Positions 17,259 through 25,058 of a DNA stretch of 64,000 nucleotides are shown here, one piece after another. Source of the DNA: Fibrobacter sp. UWEL (GTDB taxonomy: Bacteria > Fibrobacterota > Fibrobacteria > Fibrobacterales > Fibrobacteraceae); NCBI RefSeq assembly GCF_900142535.1, contig NZ_FRBE01000005.1:62001-126000 (forward strand), in the 5' to 3' direction. Made by a program: the position numbers and the translations under genes. How positions within the stretch are numbered: the first letter of the stretch is position 1; every line of letters starts with the position of its first letter. A model generated the notes under the pieces. The model made no database searches and was not told the DNA's origin. It worked only from the letters and a program-made list of their open reading frames with translations.

Positions 17259-18059
17259 ATGGGAAAGTCCCGCTTTATTTTGCCCAATGCATTCACTAGC
17301 ATGAATTTCTTGCTGGGTGTCTTCGCGATTTGCTGGGCAACAGGCGCTTTCAGTTCTTTCACCCAGGCAGACCCGATCCGCATGGGTTCCTACTTTATCG
17401 TTCTTTGCGTCCTGCTGGACAAGCTTGATGGCTTTGCCGCTCGACTGGTAAACGCCAGCTCCGAATTCGGCGCTCAGTTTGACAGCCTTGCCGACTTGAT
17501 TGCATTCGGTCTTGCACCGGCATTTACCGTCTTCTTCTGCTACCGCGGTCTTGCACCCCAGTGGTTTGGCGAGAACGGTGTGCTGTTGATCGTCACCTTC
17601 TCTATTTACGTGCTCTGCGCCGCAATGCGCCTGGCTAAGTACAACGCTTGCGACTCAGACACTTATCATCATCACTTCTCTGGTCTTCCTTCTACCTTTG
17701 CAGGTGCAATCAACGCAATCCTGATTGTTTTCCTCAAGAGCCATGGTCTCTTCGAAAACACTGATAGCCCCCTGATTTTCCTCCCGCTGCTGGTGATGCT
17801 GGTTACCGGTCTCCTGATGGTCAGCCCTCTGTTCTTGCCCAAGCTCCAGCCCCGCAAGAGCCAGGCCCTGAACATTTTCCAGGCAGTGCTGATCGTGATC
17901 ACTTACGTATCCGGCTTTATGTTCGTTTCTCCCAAGGTTCCGTTCATTACCGAATATCTCCTGCTCCTCATGGCTAGCTATCTGGGAATTGGCTTTACCA
18001 TTGGTCTTGTAAACCGCAAGAAGATTATTGCGGAAGCTCTGGAAGAACAGAAGAAGTAA
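17259..18059 (+). CDS. pssA: CDP-diacylglycerol-serine O-phosphatidyltransferase
   Basis: A 266-residue integral membrane enzyme of phosphatidylethanolamine synthesis. It transfers a phosphatidyl group from CDP-diacylglycerol to serine. The CDP-alcohol phosphotransferase motif D-x2-DG-x2-AR-x8-G-x3-D-x3-D is complete: D54, D57-G58, A61-R62, G71, D75 and D79. Several hydrophobic helices follow (SIYVLCAAMRLA, LIFLPLLVMLVTGLLMV, YLLLLMASYLGIGFTIGLV). The early asparagine-containing segment LPNAFTSMNFLLG fits the PssA subgroup rather than PgsA. GGAGG lies ahead of the ATG. It has its own terminator on each side and appears monocistronic. Confidence 0.93.
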   Translation: MGKSRFILPNAFTSMNFLLGVFAICWATGAFSSFTQADPIRMGSYFIVLCVLLDKLDGFAARLVNASSEFGAQFDSLADLIAFGLAPAFTVFFCYRGLAPQWFGENGVLLIVTFSIYVLCAAMRLAKYNACDSDTYHHHFSGLPSTFAGAINAILIVFLKSHGLFENTDSPLIFLPLLVMLVTGLLMVSPLFLPKLQPRKSQALNIFQAVLIVITYVSGFMFVSPKVPFITEYLLLLMASYLGIGFTIGLVNRKKIIAEALEEQKK

Positions 18060-18821: not shown

Positions 18822-19499
18822 CTAGATAAAGTAGGGATAAATAAAGTCTTTTGCCAGCTGATCTAAGTTATCCAGCAGGGCCGATTTGCAGGCGATATCC
18901 GTCTGTTCGTAGATTTTGCGGAGACCCTCTATGGAGAAGTTCTCCAGATATTTTCTAGACGTAGGCAAATGAGCGATATGCCATTTTTCCGGCTGGATTT
19001 TTCCGCGACCGGGAACAAACACCCGACTAAATCCAAAAGCCTTATCGGCATCCATCAGTTCTGTTAATCTCTGATGGAAGGGAGCAAACATGCCATCACA
19101 TTCTGCGGGAGTCAGCTGGACTTCGTATCCTGCGGGGCAGGCGTTTCCATCCACCACATCCAAGTCCGTTCCCAGATGGTGGCGGCTAGCCCCAGGGAGC
19201 GCTGACCACGTCAAGATGGCATACATCAGCTGTTCTTCATCCTCTGGACGTTCCATAGGAATACCGGCAGCGTCCAGAAGTTTCAACTGGCCAGAAGCCT
19301 TTCGGTTCCAGATACTCAGCTGCTTTTCAAAATTGCGATAGGCAGACTCCAGCCTGAGAGAGAAACCGTCTTTTGCAAGAGATTCCTTTAGCTTGATATA
19401 GGCGGGAACCACCGCACGATCCACAACATATCCGTCAATACAGACAAATTCATCTGAATCAACAGAACGTAAACCAAAGCAGATTTCTGCATTCATCAT
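18822..19499 (-). CDS. VanY-like D-Ala-D-Ala carboxypeptidase (peptidase M15B)
   Basis: A 225-residue zinc peptidase of the VanY/DacB family. The recognisable parts are LRLESAYRNFEKQ, the zinc motif PGASRHHLGTDLDVVDG (H-x6-D type) and the second zinc segment EKWHIAHL with the catalytic Glu and a His ligand. These enzymes trim the terminal D-Ala from murein peptides. No signal peptide is evident, which suits work on recycled peptides in the cytoplasm beside MpaA, though non-classical location cannot be excluded. The ATG at 19499 overlaps the ruvC stop by four bases (ATGA), indicating translational coupling; a second ATG lies at 19496. Confidence 0.85.
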   Translation of the reverse strand: MMNAEICFGLRSVDSDEFVCIDGYVVDRAVVPAYIKLKESLAKDGFSLRLESAYRNFEKQLSIWNRKASGQLKLLDAAGIPMERPEDEEQLMYAILTWSALPGASRHHLGTDLDVVDGNACPAGYEVQLTPAECDGMFAPFHQRLTELMDADKAFGFSRVFVPGRGKIQPEKWHIAHLPTSRKYLENFSIEGLRKIYEQTDIACKSALLDNLDQLAKDFIYPYFI

Positions 19500-20104
19500 T
19501 GGATGGTACCTCCCATCTTTTCAATCAAGTCCATCCACTGCTTTGTAGTGGCTTTTTTCTTTCGAGTGGTCAAGGAAACGGTCTTCTTCACGCCGTTCTT
19601 TTTAATACTAGCAGATACCGATAACGCCACCGAAAGAGGAGATGGATTGGCGTGAGTCCAGGCAATGGCAAGAGCATCGGAAGCATCCAAGGGCAAATCC
19701 CCCTGAGCAATTCCAAGTCTTGCAAAAATCATATTTGCCACCTGTTCCTTGGCGGCAGCACCATTACCCGTAACAGCCTGTTTTACCACCTTCGGAGGAT
19801 ACTCATTAAAAGTCATTCCCCGCTTACGGCAAGCCACCAGCACAGCACCACGAATATGTCCAAGAACAAGGGCGCTCTTGGCATTCTTGGCAAAGAACAC
19901 CCCTTCCATACTTAACGCACTGGGATGATAGCGGTCCAGCAGTTTTTCCAGTTCCGTAATAATGTGGAGGAGACGGTCCTCGAGAATATGGTCTGCAGGG
20001 GCATGGATTACCCCATATTCAAGAACTTTCAAGTCATTTCCGTTCTTGTCTAAAAATGCATAGCCCGTAGTGATAGAACCGGGGTCAATTCCGAGGATGA
20101 TCAT
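19496..20104 (-). CDS. ruvC: Holliday junction endonuclease RuvC
   Basis: A 202-residue enzyme that cleaves Holliday junctions during recombination. The catalytic acids are recognisable: Asp7 in MIILGIDPGS, Glu in LSMEGVFFAKNAKSALVLG and the C-terminal pair in LDASDALAIAW. The sequence between is typical (EYPPKVVKQAVTGNGAAAKEQV). E. coli RuvC has 173 residues; here an extra basic tail of about 40 residues (KKNGVKKTVSLTTRKKKATT) follows the catalytic core. No ruvA or ruvB lies nearby. The upstream TAATTT box sits seven bases before the ATG with no ribosome-binding site. It is the first gene of a three-gene minus-strand unit with the two murein peptidases. Confidence 0.95.
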   Translation of the reverse strand: MIILGIDPGSITTGYAFLDKNGNDLKVLEYGVIHAPADHILEDRLLHIITELEKLLDRYHPSALSMEGVFFAKNAKSALVLGHIRGAVLVACRKRGMTFNEYPPKVVKQAVTGNGAAAKEQVANMIFARLGIAQGDLPLDASDALAIAWTHANPSPLSVALSVSASIKKNGVKKTVSLTTRKKKATTKQWMDLIEKMGGTIQ

Positions 20105-20117: not shown

Positions 20118-20158
20118 AAAAAAATCTAGATTTCAAAAGAGAAAAAACGAGGCTTATT

Positions 20159-22045
20159 ATGCTTATCGATCAAGAACACGCTGGCATTATCATGCGGGCA
20201 AAAACCCACCCGCGTCAATTGGGAGTACCTCTTTCACGTTGGGGAAGAAACCTCATTGCTTGTTGTCCTTTCCACTCTCCCGAGGAAACGTCCCTATTCT
20301 TCTATGACGCCCTGGGATACTGGCGTTACCGTTGCTTGCAGTGCGGTAGCGAAGGCGACCTGGTTGAATTTGTAATGCGCAGCCGTTTCAACGGATTGGA
20401 TGAAGCCGCCGCTCGTGTGGAGGCCCTGGATTTTTTGGGCACCCAGGACACAGAAAAGGACAACCTACCCGATGAACATCCCTGGATTAAGGAATTGGGT
20501 GGAGAAAAGACGAAGGTCCTAGAAAACTTCGTACGCTACTGCCACTGGGCTGCTTGCAAGAGCCCGTCCTCTGCAGAGTTCCTTGCCTCCCGTGGTTGGA
20601 GCATCGGCCAGGCACAGCTTTATGGTATCGGCTACTACAGCGGCGATCCGGAACCCTTTGTCAGCTACTGCATGATGTCCGGTATCGAACGCCACCAGAT
20701 TAGTTTCTACCTAGACAATCTGGAAGCCTATCACGAACCGAGAATCACCATTCCCGCTCGTAATTCCAAGGGATTGATCCATTCCGTCTATGGACGTCTC
20801 ATCGACGAAGCGGATGGTCCTAACACTTACATCTCCTACGCATCCGGTCCTGCAGATATTCCTTTCAATATGCAGCTTGAAAATACCAAGCCTCTCATTG
20901 TGGAAGGATTCTTCGACGCACTGACAGCAGACCTTTCCGGTATTCCCGGCGTAGTTTCCACGTTGTATCAGGAACTGACCTTAAGCCACCTTCTGAAGCT
21001 GAAGGCTTGCGGTGCAGAATCCGTCACGGTGGTTCTCCGTAGAGAACAGGATCGCCGCGAACAGGAATTTCGCATTCAGCGTTACTTGAAAATGGCCCAG
21101 GAACTGAACTTGAAGTTCAAGTCCATCGTGCTTCCTAAGGGCGAAACCGTGGACCAGGTGGTTCGCAAGAACGGCGCTGACCAGTTGATTTCCCTGGTAG
21201 AACAGACTGAAGTGGATACGGTCCATACCCACCGCCGTTCCATGCTTCTCCAGGATATTAAGGAAAACTTTGACACCGCCATGGGTTGTCCTCCGGATGT
21301 GAGCGTCGGCTATTCCCTGAGCACCTTCCCCAAGCTTACTCAGGAAATCGACGGCATCCAGTCCGGTTGCTTCTACGTGTCTTCCAAGCCCTTTGGTTTA
21401 AAGACCACCCTGCTTTCTAGCATGGCCCTGGATTTGATTCAGAGCAATCCCAAGCTGAAGTTGATTTACGTTGCACTGGAAACTCCCCGCCGCCAGATTT
21501 TTGATAGACTGGTGGCCATGATGATTGGGGAATCCGTACTCACCGTCCGTAAGCAAAGCGATGACGAAGGCGTGAACCAGAAGATTCTGGAAGCCACCCG
21601 CGAACTCATGGGCTATGTACGTACCAACCGTCTGGAAATTTGGGAAGACTCCCCCCTGTTCGACAACACCGAAATACTGAGCACACTGAAGGACGAAGTC
21701 AAGGAACATCCTAACCTGGTTGTCATGATTGACGGAATCGATCACCTGAAGGTGACGGACCATCCGGAATTAAGCGACATTTGCGAACGCCGCGCTGCGG
21801 TGATTCTGGATTTGTATAAGGCTCTGGATATTCCCTTCTTCCTGGGCGGCGAACTGATTGATTCCGAACAAGGTTTGATCGGTCCTCGCGCTTACCTCCG
21901 CGATTCTGACGCTATTTACTGGTTGGAATCTAAGGGTGGCAATTTGTTCTTGAATGTGGACTCCAAGCGTCTGGGCAGCAACAAACTGTATCAGGGTAAC
22001 CTGACGATTGACCCGCTATCTAACAAGATGCAGGAAGATCGTTAA
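20159..22045 (+). CDS. DnaG/DnaB-like fusion with degenerate active sites
   Basis: The start at 20159 follows AACGAGG and is preferred to a TTG at 20108; 628 residues. Residues 25-75 form a CHC2 zinc finger with Cys36, His39, Cys59 and Cys62 (ACCPFHSPEETS, YRCLQCGSEGDLVEF). A primase core and TOPRIM-like region follow: Glu249 in IVEGFFDAL is kept, but the expected D-x-D strand reads VVLRREQDRR. Residues 385-628 resemble the DnaB RecA fold, yet the Walker A loop is SSKPFGLKTT (408-417), lacking the Gly of GKT; Walker B is VVMIDGIDHL (D525), and RAYLRDSDAIYWLES mimics the end of DnaB. It is divergent from ruvC and overlaps the next gene by one base. It is probably not a working primase-helicase; a structural or regulatory role is inferred. 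Confidence 0.75.
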   Translation: MLIDQEHAGIIMRAKTHPRQLGVPLSRWGRNLIACCPFHSPEETSLFFYDALGYWRYRCLQCGSEGDLVEFVMRSRFNGLDEAAARVEALDFLGTQDTEKDNLPDEHPWIKELGGEKTKVLENFVRYCHWAACKSPSSAEFLASRGWSIGQAQLYGIGYYSGDPEPFVSYCMMSGIERHQISFYLDNLEAYHEPRITIPARNSKGLIHSVYGRLIDEADGPNTYISYASGPADIPFNMQLENTKPLIVEGFFDALTADLSGIPGVVSTLYQELTLSHLLKLKACGAESVTVVLRREQDRREQEFRIQRYLKMAQELNLKFKSIVLPKGETVDQVVRKNGADQLISLVEQTEVDTVHTHRRSMLLQDIKENFDTAMGCPPDVSVGYSLSTFPKLTQEIDGIQSGCFYVSSKPFGLKTTLLSSMALDLIQSNPKLKLIYVALETPRRQIFDRLVAMMIGESVLTVRKQSDDEGVNQKILEATRELMGYVRTNRLEIWEDSPLFDNTEILSTLKDEVKEHPNLVVMIDGIDHLKVTDHPELSDICERRAAVILDLYKALDIPFFLGGELIDSEQGLIGPRAYLRDSDAIYWLESKGGNLFLNVDSKRLGSNKLYQGNLTIDPLSNKMQEDR

Positions 22046-23232
22046 TGCTAACCATCGTTGACTTTAACAACTTCTGGAGTCCTTCGGGAGGCGGCGTCCG
22101 TCGCTACCATCTCCAGAAGATGGACTTCTACAAAAGTCAGAAAGACGTACTATCCGTCTTCGTGATGGCCGATTCAAAGACCTACACGGAGAAGGTAAGC
22201 GATAGCCTGATTATCGAGCATGTGGAAGCATTCCGCTTTCCAGGCAATTGGGAATACCGCTTCATCTGGAAGCAGTCCCAAATTCGTCCAGTGCTTAAGA
22301 AGTACAAGCCCGATGTAATTGAAGTAGGCTCCCCCTACATTCTTCCCACGGTCGTGCGTATAGCTGCAAAGAAGATTGTCCCCCATGCAGCGATCCTCAG
22401 TTTCTGGCATGCAGACTTCCCCATCACTTACGTGGAACGTCCTGTAGCAAACAAGCTAGGCAAGGCGATTGGTGCATTCTGCAGAAAGGCGGCCTTCTGG
22501 TACGCTAAGCAAGAGTTTAAGCGTTACGACGGGATTCAGGTTTCCTGTAAGGAAGTCATGAATCGTCTGGATAAAAATGGTCTTCCCAAGTCCCACTGGA
22601 TTCCTCTGGGTTGCGACATCCAGATGTTCAATCCTACAAAGCGAGACGAAGAACTGGTCCAGAAACTGAAGGATGGAAATCCTGACCGTCTGACCATATT
22701 CTTCCCCCACCGTTTCTGTGAGGAAAAAGGCATCGAGCTTTTGCTGGGGGCCTACCCCATCCTTGCGAAGAAATTGAACTGCGAGCCGGCTCTTGTTCTT
22801 GCGGGAACAGGACCTTGCCTCCCTCAGGTAAAAGCGGCTGTGGAAAAGAATTCCCATATGCAGTACGCAGGCTTTATTAAGTCCGCTGATGAAATGGCCC
22901 GTTATTATTCTAGCGTTGATCTGGGACTTGCCCTATCTGGATGGGAAACCTTTGGACTTTCCATTCTGGAAAGCATGGCCTGCGGAAACGCCCAGGTGGG
23001 TGCCGCTACAGGCGCCGCCGCTGAACACGTAACAGAATCAGGTGCAGGCACCCTTCTTAAAAAGCGCACCGCACAGAGTTTGGCAGACGCCATTATCGAA
23101 CTTTACCACTCCGACTTGAAGCAAAAAAAATTGAACGCTCGTACTTACGCAGAAAAGTTCAGCTGGAACGATTGTTTCAAACGTCAGTTAGATCTTTACA
23201 TACAAATTTCAAACAACAAGAGGAAAAAATGA
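22045..23232 (+). CDS. Glycosyltransferase family 4 (GT-B fold)
   Basis: A 395-residue glycosyltransferase of the GT4 type. The N-terminal domain has the usual nucleotide-sugar transferase opening FWSPSGGGVRRYH. The C-terminal domain shows IFFPHRFCEEKGIELLLGAY, ALVLAGTGP and the E-x7-E signature in SGWETFGLSILESMACGNAQ. These enzymes add sugars to lipid or polysaccharide acceptors at the membrane; the donor and acceptor are not predictable. Its ATG overlaps the stop of the DnaG/DnaB-like gene (TAATG), and its stop overlaps the ATG of the Dabb gene, so translation of all three is coupled despite unrelated functions. Confidence 0.9.
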   Translation: MLTIVDFNNFWSPSGGGVRRYHLQKMDFYKSQKDVLSVFVMADSKTYTEKVSDSLIIEHVEAFRFPGNWEYRFIWKQSQIRPVLKKYKPDVIEVGSPYILPTVVRIAAKKIVPHAAILSFWHADFPITYVERPVANKLGKAIGAFCRKAAFWYAKQEFKRYDGIQVSCKEVMNRLDKNGLPKSHWIPLGCDIQMFNPTKRDEELVQKLKDGNPDRLTIFFPHRFCEEKGIELLLGAYPILAKKLNCEPALVLAGTGPCLPQVKAAVEKNSHMQYAGFIKSADEMARYYSSVDLGLALSGWETFGLSILESMACGNAQVGAATGAAAEHVTESGAGTLLKKRTAQSLADAIIELYHSDLKQKKLNARTYAEKFSWNDCFKRQLDLYIQISNNKRKK

Positions 23233-23546: not shown

Positions 23547-23586
23547 GATTCACTTTTCCATAACCACTTTCAACCGCTAGATTTCC

Positions 23587-24525
23587 ATGATCCCTAATCG
23601 CCTTATTTTCATCTGGCTGGGCCCCAAGTTTCCTTGGAGCGGAGGCCTTGCAATTCGTTCCGCATACAATGTCCAGAAACCGCAATCCATCTGGCTTGTT
23701 CACGAAGGTCTAAAGCAGGAAGGTGACGGTTGGGATCTGATCAAGGACATTCCCGGTCTGGAAGTAATCCCCGTGAACGATGGACATTTCGAAGGTTTAG
23801 GTGATGACGGCTTGTGCGGTAAGCTGTTCCATACCCTAACCGCCCCCGCAAGCCGCGCAAACCTTTTGCGTCTCGCCCTGTTGTTTAAATATGGCGGAGT
23901 CTATCTGGACACGGACATCATCATGACAAAGCCCTTCGGGGAAATGATGGAGCTAAGAGGCTTCGTTGGGACAGAGCCTGTTGCGCTTCCCGCAAGCCTT
24001 TTCAAGAGCATCAATCCCTTCCGTTGGGCGTTCTGCGGCATGCAGTTCGCCTTCCGCGAACTTTGCGCCAGAATGCCTGGTGGATATGGTCTCTTCCGTT
24101 CTTTCGAAGGCTTATTTACCGCAGCAGTAAACAACGCCGTTATTGGAGCAGAACCAGGCAACGAAACCATCGTGAAGGCCTTTGAATACATAAAGACCAT
24201 GCCCGAGGAAGAACGCCTAAAACGTTTCCGTCTGGGCACCCGCCTCTTGCAGAATGTAACAGGCAACAAGAGCAGCGATTCTATGGAAGTTGTTCCCGCC
24301 CCCTACTTCTACCCCCTGGGTCCCGAAGTCAGCGCACATTGGTTCAAGAACAACACCCATAAGAAGGTTCAAAAGCTGGTATTACCCGAAACCCGAGTTG
24401 TTCATTGGTACAATTCCGTGGAAGGTCGTTTCTTAAAGACAAAGTTGTCCAAGGAATGGGTAGACAGCCACCCCAATACTGCATTCTCTGAACTTGCACG
24501 TATTGCTTTAGAACAAGCAAATTAA
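23587..24525 (+). CDS. Glycosyltransferase with DXD motif (GT32 type)
   Basis: A 312-residue GT-A fold transferase. The N-terminus IPNRLIFIWLGPKFPWSG matches the I-P-k-x-I-h-x-x-W start of GT32 proteins. The donor and metal site is FKYGGVYLDTDIIMTKPF, with the SRANLLRLALL helix before it. A later VVHWYNSVEGRF segment matches the conserved H-x-W near the end of these enzymes. It probably extends surface polysaccharide or lipopolysaccharide in the cytoplasm. It lies 40 bases after the Dabb gene without a terminator, so it is likely in the same transcript as the GT4 enzyme. Sugar specificity is unknown. Confidence 0.88.
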   Translation: MIPNRLIFIWLGPKFPWSGGLAIRSAYNVQKPQSIWLVHEGLKQEGDGWDLIKDIPGLEVIPVNDGHFEGLGDDGLCGKLFHTLTAPASRANLLRLALLFKYGGVYLDTDIIMTKPFGEMMELRGFVGTEPVALPASLFKSINPFRWAFCGMQFAFRELCARMPGGYGLFRSFEGLFTAAVNNAVIGAEPGNETIVKAFEYIKTMPEEERLKRFRLGTRLLQNVTGNKSSDSMEVVPAPYFYPLGPEVSAHWFKNNTHKKVQKLVLPETRVVHWYNSVEGRFLKTKLSKEWVDSHPNTAFSELARIALEQAN

Positions 24526-24563: not shown

Positions 24564-25058
24564 ATGGTTCAATTTAGTCAAACTTCATGGCAGGAATACT
24601 CTCTGGCAAATGTGCTGGAGACTCTTCGCTTTGCCCCCATGAGCTTGGCCGTAAGCAAGAATCCCATTATCCACTACACTCTTCCCAAGTCCCTGGACCA
24701 GGGTGAAATCGTGAAGTATACCGTGGTGGCTGGATTCAAGAAAATTTCCTGGACTGGTATCATTGCCGCATCCTCCGAGAACAAGGTCACTGTCCGTCTG
24801 GATAAGGGTCCTTTCCGCGGATTCAATGCAACCCACCTGTTCTCTTCCGAAGGCAATCTGACTAGCTGCAGTGATTCGTTCTCTTTCCAGGGCATCACCG
24901 GCATCGACGAAGACTCCTTCAGAAGCCTGATGGAACAGGCCGGCGTCGTTTACGCCATCGAAAGCAGAAAGGACGCTCGAAGCATCATTCTGGCTGTAGA
25001 ATCCAAGAAGCAGACTCAGAGTTTCGAAGCATTGGACAACGCCGCTACCGCCGGTTAA
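24564..25058 (+). CDS. SRPBCC (START-like) ligand-binding protein
   Basis: A 164-residue protein that matches the helix-grip SRPBCC superfamily, in the form often labelled as cyclase/dehydrase-like. The clues are LRFAPMSLAV, IHYTLPKSLDQGEIVKYTVV, SWTGIIAASSENKVTVRLDK, GPFRGFNATHLF and a closing helix region. These proteins bind hydrophobic ligands in a deep pocket, and some have hydrolase or cyclase activity; no catalytic residues can be named here. It lies three bases upstream of the UbiD-type gene and is probably cotranscribed with it and the metalloprotease. A link to quinone chemistry is possible through UbiD, but is inference. Confidence 0.75.
   Translation: MVQFSQTSWQEYSLANVLETLRFAPMSLAVSKNPIIHYTLPKSLDQGEIVKYTVVAGFKKISWTGIIAASSENKVTVRLDKGPFRGFNATHLFSSEGNLTSCSDSFSFQGITGIDEDSFRSLMEQAGVVYAIESRKDARSIILAVESKKQTQSFEALDNAATAG

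Follow-up and report, generated by a model that had tools for sequence, protein, structure and literature searches.

A Conserved Primase-Helicase-Like Protein of the Fibrobacteraceae with Altered Primase and ATPase Sites

Introduction

Few enzymes are better conserved than replicative primases and helicases and, to our knowledge, naturally inactive forms of them that are under strong selection have rarely been described outside mitochondrial Twinkle. The closest described systems carry both folds in one polypeptide. In gp4 of phage T7 a zinc ribbon, a primase core with its TOPRIM fold and an SF4 helicase fold share a single chain, and both active sites function. Twinkle, the mitochondrial replicative helicase, has a working motor and a mutated zinc-binding domain. 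In metazoans its primase function was lost in evolution while DNA binding by the N-terminal part was retained, and in the human protein the N-terminal domain, which no longer primes, still binds DNA and stabilizes the oligomer (PMC9860392).

Here we describe a chromosomal gene of this type from Fibrobacter sp. UWEL, found in a stretch of 64,000 nucleotides of contig NZ_FRBE01000005.1 (hereafter the window) that belongs to a genome of 3.53 Mb with 99.98% completeness. A literature search of partial coverage returned no account of the protein.

Domain Architecture

The gene and its recognizable parts are as follows.

20159..22045, plus strand: coding sequence of the 628-aa primase-helicase-like protein, a gp4/Twinkle-type homolog with altered active sites
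20225..20413, plus strand: CHC2 zinc ribbon, residues 23-85 (PF01807, 2.4e-9, above cut-off)
20471..20878, plus strand: N-terminal part of the DnaG RNA-polymerase core, residues ~105-240 (TIGR01391 and 2au3 profile)
20879..21214, plus strand: TOPRIM-like fold, residues ~241-352, with Glu249 variable and Asp253 invariant
21038..21046, plus strand: R294-R295-E296 in place of the primase D-x-D (DnaG profile alignment and family survey)
21317..21967, plus strand: DnaB/SF4 RecA-like fold, residues ~387-603, with Walker B Asp525 kept (DnaB_C match and structural Z score)
21386..21409, plus strand: altered Walker A, K410-P-F-G-L-K-T-T417, in which GKT has become LKT (profile alignment and family survey)

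A first-pass annotation of this DNA had read the gene as a primase-helicase fusion, citing Cys36, His39, Cys59, Cys62 and Glu249, the motifs VVLRREQDRR (residues 291-300) and SSKPFGLKTT (residues 408-417) and a DnaB-like end, RAYLRDSDAIYWLE; its coordinates, residues and motifs are accurate, and Pfam, NCBIfam, PDB profile searches, Foldseek and structural alignment agree on the fusion order. The window protein matches the Pfam CHC2 family with 37.3 bits (gathering cut-off 24.9), followed by weaker matches to DnaB_C (0.0011), Toprim_4 (0.011) and DNAG_N (0.13), the DnaB_C score (PF03796) being 18.9 bits against a cut-off of 27. Among NCBIfam models, the DnaG model TIGR01391 aligns with residues 23-361 (E 2.4e-26) at 92.5 bits, below its equivalog-domain cut-off of 283.6, and the DnaB model TIGR00665 scores 18.4 bits against a cut-off of 385. 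In 17 diverse members of the family the zinc ribbon was matched in all 17 and DnaB_C in 15, at best with 3.9e-9. When the family profile was compared by sequence with the PDB, DnaG structures ranked first and DnaB structures next, 2au3 being aligned over residues 23-351.

Structure prediction gives the same picture. Foldseek matched the AlphaFold model (mean pLDDT 74.9) best with Twinkle, T7 gp4, DnaG and DnaB structures, led by metazoan Twinkle 7t8c (1.2e-15), with the T7 gp4 structures 1q57 and 5ikn at E values of about 1e-14. VIA-align superposed the model on DnaB over 246 residues (Z 26.6, rmsd 2.7) and on the Aquifex primase over 250 residues (Z 22.6, rmsd 3.4). Given a pTM of 0.45, which is low, the model does not fix the relative placement of the two halves or the formation of a ring. 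One polypeptide carries a zinc ribbon, an RNA-polymerase core and a TOPRIM fold followed by an SF4 RecA domain, in the same order as in gp4 of phage T7 and in Twinkle.

Active-Site Residues

Residue correspondences were set by profile alignment with 26 DnaG and 26 DnaB sequences of the Fibrobacterota, and residues were counted over the 69 distinct orthologous sequences of the family, across which the altered positions proved to be shared. On the primase side, the L-V-F-D-G-D of DnaG corresponds to V-V-L-R-R-E in the window protein, so that D-G-D falls on R294-R295-E296; EGYFD corresponds to E249-G-F-F-D253 and DPD to T-V-D332. Residues 294-296 read RRE in 54 sequences, RRD in five, RKE in five and RRQ, SRE, RRT, ERG or DKH in one each. 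D-x-D occurs at 294/296 in none of the 69, and the reported loss of the primase acidic pair therefore extends to the whole family. Glu249, which had been put forward as a TOPRIM-like residue, is present here but is not fixed (E in 60, Q in 7, S in 1, P in 1); the invariant TOPRIM residue is Asp253. The zinc ligands Cys36, His39, Cys59 and Cys62 (C-H-C-C) are found in 69/69, and T197, P199, R201, N202, K204 and G205 are invariant in the DnaG-type core.

On the helicase side, A-R-P-G-V-G-K-T of DnaB corresponds to S-K-P-F-G-L-K-T, SLEM to ALET and the Walker B segment IIDYLQL to MIDGIDHL. Glycine precedes the Walker lysine in none of the 69 sequences, position 414 being L, F, H, Y or D. Lys415 is nevertheless kept in 68 and Thr/Ser416 in 67, a single member having L-S-S at Walker A; calling Walker A lost was right about the glycine but too strong for the site as a whole. 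Walker B Asp525 is present in all 69 sequences, Glu441 at the catalytic-glutamate position in 64 (D or K in the other five) and S-K-R near the C-terminus in 59, and an arginine-finger-like K-x-R segment is not conserved in the deeper members.

The two centers differ in how far they have changed. Since the acidic pair never takes the form D-x-D in 69 sequences, priming activity has very likely been lost. The ATPase site has changed as well, but as the Walker A Lys/Thr, the Walker B Asp and the catalytic-Glu position mostly remain, it may still bind a nucleotide and work in full or in part; the description of the protein as catalytically silent is supported for the primase half only. Judged by sequence, the protein has the known gp4/Twinkle architecture, yet it lacks the catalytic signatures of that type, namely a canonical Walker A GK[ST] (L-K-T in the window) and the TOPRIM acids of active primases (Glu, then D-x-D).

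DnaG and DnaB in the Same Cells

The genome that carries the gene also encodes a 710-aa DnaG with CPFH, CFACG, VEGYFD and DGD and a 471-aa DnaB with ARPGVGKT, DYLQL and SLEM. Among 28 genomes checked, DnaB was found in 28 and DnaG in 27, the exception being 71% complete, and where the gene is present the motifs of both are intact, the one exception being a second zinc motif (L170), which our pattern did not match. The earlier annotation held that absence of intact dnaG and dnaB elsewhere would make this protein the working enzyme; this genome has separate intact copies, as do nearly all of the relatives checked, and we reject the idea that the gene replaces them. A recent duplication of the host dnaG also seems unlikely, as the protein matches host DnaG with only 36.7 bits, no better than it matches DnaGs of phages and plasmids.

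A second small protein with CHC2 and TOPRIM domains, 386 aa long, is encoded at L099:3302-4462 (G000 C3, about 83.3 kb) between murB-like and argG-like genes. Its D-x-D is apparently intact (LDHDEAG), and it may be a separate small primase.

Distribution and Selection

The gene is present in 97 of 111 Fibrobacteraceae genomes and in 52 of the 56 of good quality, the remaining four all belonging to genus g4; the 57 other genomes searched within the phylum gave no match at 1e-12. It is a single-copy core gene, with a frame free of stops in the 97 genomes. In a tree of DnaG and DnaB, the two most divergent carriers (G002 and G104) are the first to branch off within the family, and the non-carriers (g2/g4) are nested inside it. 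This placement fits an ancestor of the family that had the gene and, apparently, one loss in the g2/g4 clade, under a root that is moderately supported because the outgroup consists of three genomes only.

Identity to the window sequence is higher for the protein than for RuvC at 52 of 54 loci and than for the adjacent GT4 glycosyltransferase at 48 of 54. The median dN/dS is about 0.05 over the whole gene; it falls to 0.02 in the zinc ribbon (the most conserved part) and to 0.03 near Walker A, and is 0.08 where the D-x-D used to be. These values are approximate since dS is near saturation (median 1.6), and strong constraint is a safer conclusion than the figures themselves. The long chromosomal retention proposed earlier is thus well founded: this is an old, vertically inherited chromosomal gene under strong purifying selection.

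A phage source, by contrast with that retention, found no backing, as viral, phage and plasmid collections yielded no close viral relative. IMG/VR, searched with the family alignment, held no relative. A tblastn search of phages and plasmids gave matches of ~21-25% among those listed, mostly to the DnaG-like half and none with at least 80% coverage. The widest of them (H1, MT835875) has no long standard-code ORF at the matched region. A viral structure search matched phage primase-helicases, none of them close.

Genomic Surroundings

The following features flank the gene.

19496..20104, minus strand: ruvC, divergent, 54 bp from the primase-helicase-like gene
20127..20133, plus strand: TAGATTT box, promoter-like, 5' of the start codon
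22043..22047, plus strand: TAATG, in which the stop codon overlaps the start of the GT4 gene
22045..23232, plus strand: GT4 glycosyltransferase, nearest to the NCBIfam model of GlcNAc-phosphatidylglycerol (GlcNAc-PG) synthase, below cut-off

The divergent arrangement with ruvC that had been noted holds for the window, for Fibrobacter and for near genera, where the ruvC/vanY synteny is kept, but G002 and G104, the two most divergent lineages, lack the pairing. Coupling to a glycosyltransferase gene is the firmer part of that description, for a GT4 gene lies directly 3' wherever the flank is long enough to tell, also at loci whose upstream side is entirely different. Its start overlaps the stop codon by one base in 42/69 and otherwise, where located, is offset by -13 to +24. 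The GT4 gene also occurs without the primase-helicase-like gene, in genus g4 and in one class-level relative. At the three g4 loci examined an RNase HI-like gene (L119:2656-3252, L120:3246-4157 and L123:3352-3945) directly precedes GT4, one of these genes having a long Lys-rich repeat tail.

The GlcNAc-PG synthase model is the best NCBIfam match of the GT4 protein (9.3e-54), and such a synthase has been characterized in Pseudomonas (PMC12713373). A CDP-alcohol phosphatidyltransferase, phosphatidylserine-synthase-like by eye, is encoded at 17259-18059, and the two genes point to possible glyco-phospholipid synthesis in Fibrobacter.

TAGATTT lies 23-33 nt 5' of most starts and is present in 49/66 distinct upstream regions, against a mean of 0.86 in simple shuffles; as the shuffles ignore kinship, the count speaks for a conserved promoter-like element and not for independent origins. 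In the window the site falls within AAATCTAGATTT, a perfect palindrome, and the only other plus-strand YTAGATTT is at 23577, just 5' of a GT32-like gene at 23587. Scans for sigma-70 promoters and terminators stayed at chance level, and an Rfam scan of the window gave no matches. At 24564-25058 the window encodes a 164-aa protein that is conserved beside a UbiD-like gene and has no Pfam match above cut-off.

Possible Functions

We propose, with a probability of roughly one in two, that the protein is a gp4/Twinkle-like pseudo-primase that acts as a non-priming, probably oligomeric factor binding single-stranded DNA, and that it modulates the primosome or protects or marks single-stranded DNA. 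We favor a non-catalytic role of this kind by analogy with the N-terminal domain of Twinkle. Primer synthesis would have been lost and the normal helicase cycle would not be run, the zinc ribbon and basic core would still read or hold single-stranded DNA, and the RecA domains would still oligomerize, perhaps with bound nucleotide and with slow or no hydrolysis. Such a platform might act on the DnaB-DnaG primosome or shield or label exposed strands. The constraint, strongest on the zinc ribbon and the T-x-P-x-R-N-x-K-G core segment, appears to fit template reading, and the protein probably grips single-stranded DNA rather than working as an enzyme. The weakest step is the one that links DNA binding to a target in the cell, and the constant partner of the gene, a glycosyltransferase gene and not a replication gene, counts against this reading. 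The fuller claim, that both centers are inactive and that the protein is a core non-catalytic component of replication or repair in the Fibrobacteraceae beside intact DnaG and DnaB, we hold more tentatively.

Against the non-catalytic reading stand the Walker A Lys and Thr/Ser, the Walker B Asp and Glu441, which are mostly kept. Together with the C-terminal S-K-R and with best PDB fold matches that are active enzymes (DnaB, Twinkle and T7 gp4), they make the chief rival an accessory ring helicase resembling Twinkle, in which priming was lost and NTP is bound and hydrolyzed through a residual, non-canonical P-loop, F-G-L-K-T. We consider this rather unlikely, given that the glycine before the lysine is replaced in every member, one of which has L-S-S, that five members have D or K at 441 and that the deeper ones do not keep the K-x-R segment.

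The neighborhood suggests a different reading, in which the protein serves the adjacent glycosyltransferase as a DNA- or nucleotide-sensing regulator or a scaffold tying glyco-phospholipid synthesis to the state of replication. The unbroken linkage, often with overlapping stop and start, and the resemblance of GT4 to GlcNAc-PG synthase speak for it; linkage alone may mean co-transcription, however, GT4 occurs without the gene, and the protein shows no sign of membrane or glycosyltransferase contact, all of which leaves this role improbable. That phage primase families match the protein would suit an anti-phage decoy that, though inactive as a primase-helicase, poisons the replisomes of phages, and here the odds seem to us very long indeed: the gene is single-copy, core and vertically inherited with very low dN/dS, no defence neighbors were seen, and PADLOC returned no full-length match to a defence model, its matches being partial, confined to the N-terminal part and to DRT models (RT_UG29, RTasDnaG-like). 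Altered catalytic residues might finally indicate a decaying pseudogene or a chance ORF, a reading that is refuted by the conservation data, in particular the frame that is open in 97 genomes, the low dN/dS and a conservation exceeding that of RuvC.

If the non-catalytic, DNA-binding role is correct, the protein would be a slowly evolving core pseudo-primase of a culturable bacterial genus. What a primase/helicase scaffold does without catalysis could then be tested directly, as could the question whether replication or repair in Fibrobacter departs from the standard DnaB-DnaG scheme.

Comparison with Known Systems

The protein resembles bacterial DnaG over the region aligned with TIGR01391, but it lacks D-x-D, has a RecA fold instead of the C-terminal region of DnaG and is distinct from the intact DnaG of its host. 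With bacterial DnaB it shares the RecA fold and, for the most part, the Walker B and catalytic-Glu positions, whereas a primase-like half takes the place of the DnaB N-terminal domain and GKT has become LKT. T7 gp4 has the same three parts in one chain, yet gp4 is viral with both sites active, and here the gene is chromosomal with the D-x-D and the P-loop glycine replaced. Twinkle, the top structural match, offers the parallel of a lost primase function, but the changes are distributed differently: the Fibrobacter protein has kept its zinc site better than any other part, has an altered P-loop and shares its cell with a DnaB.
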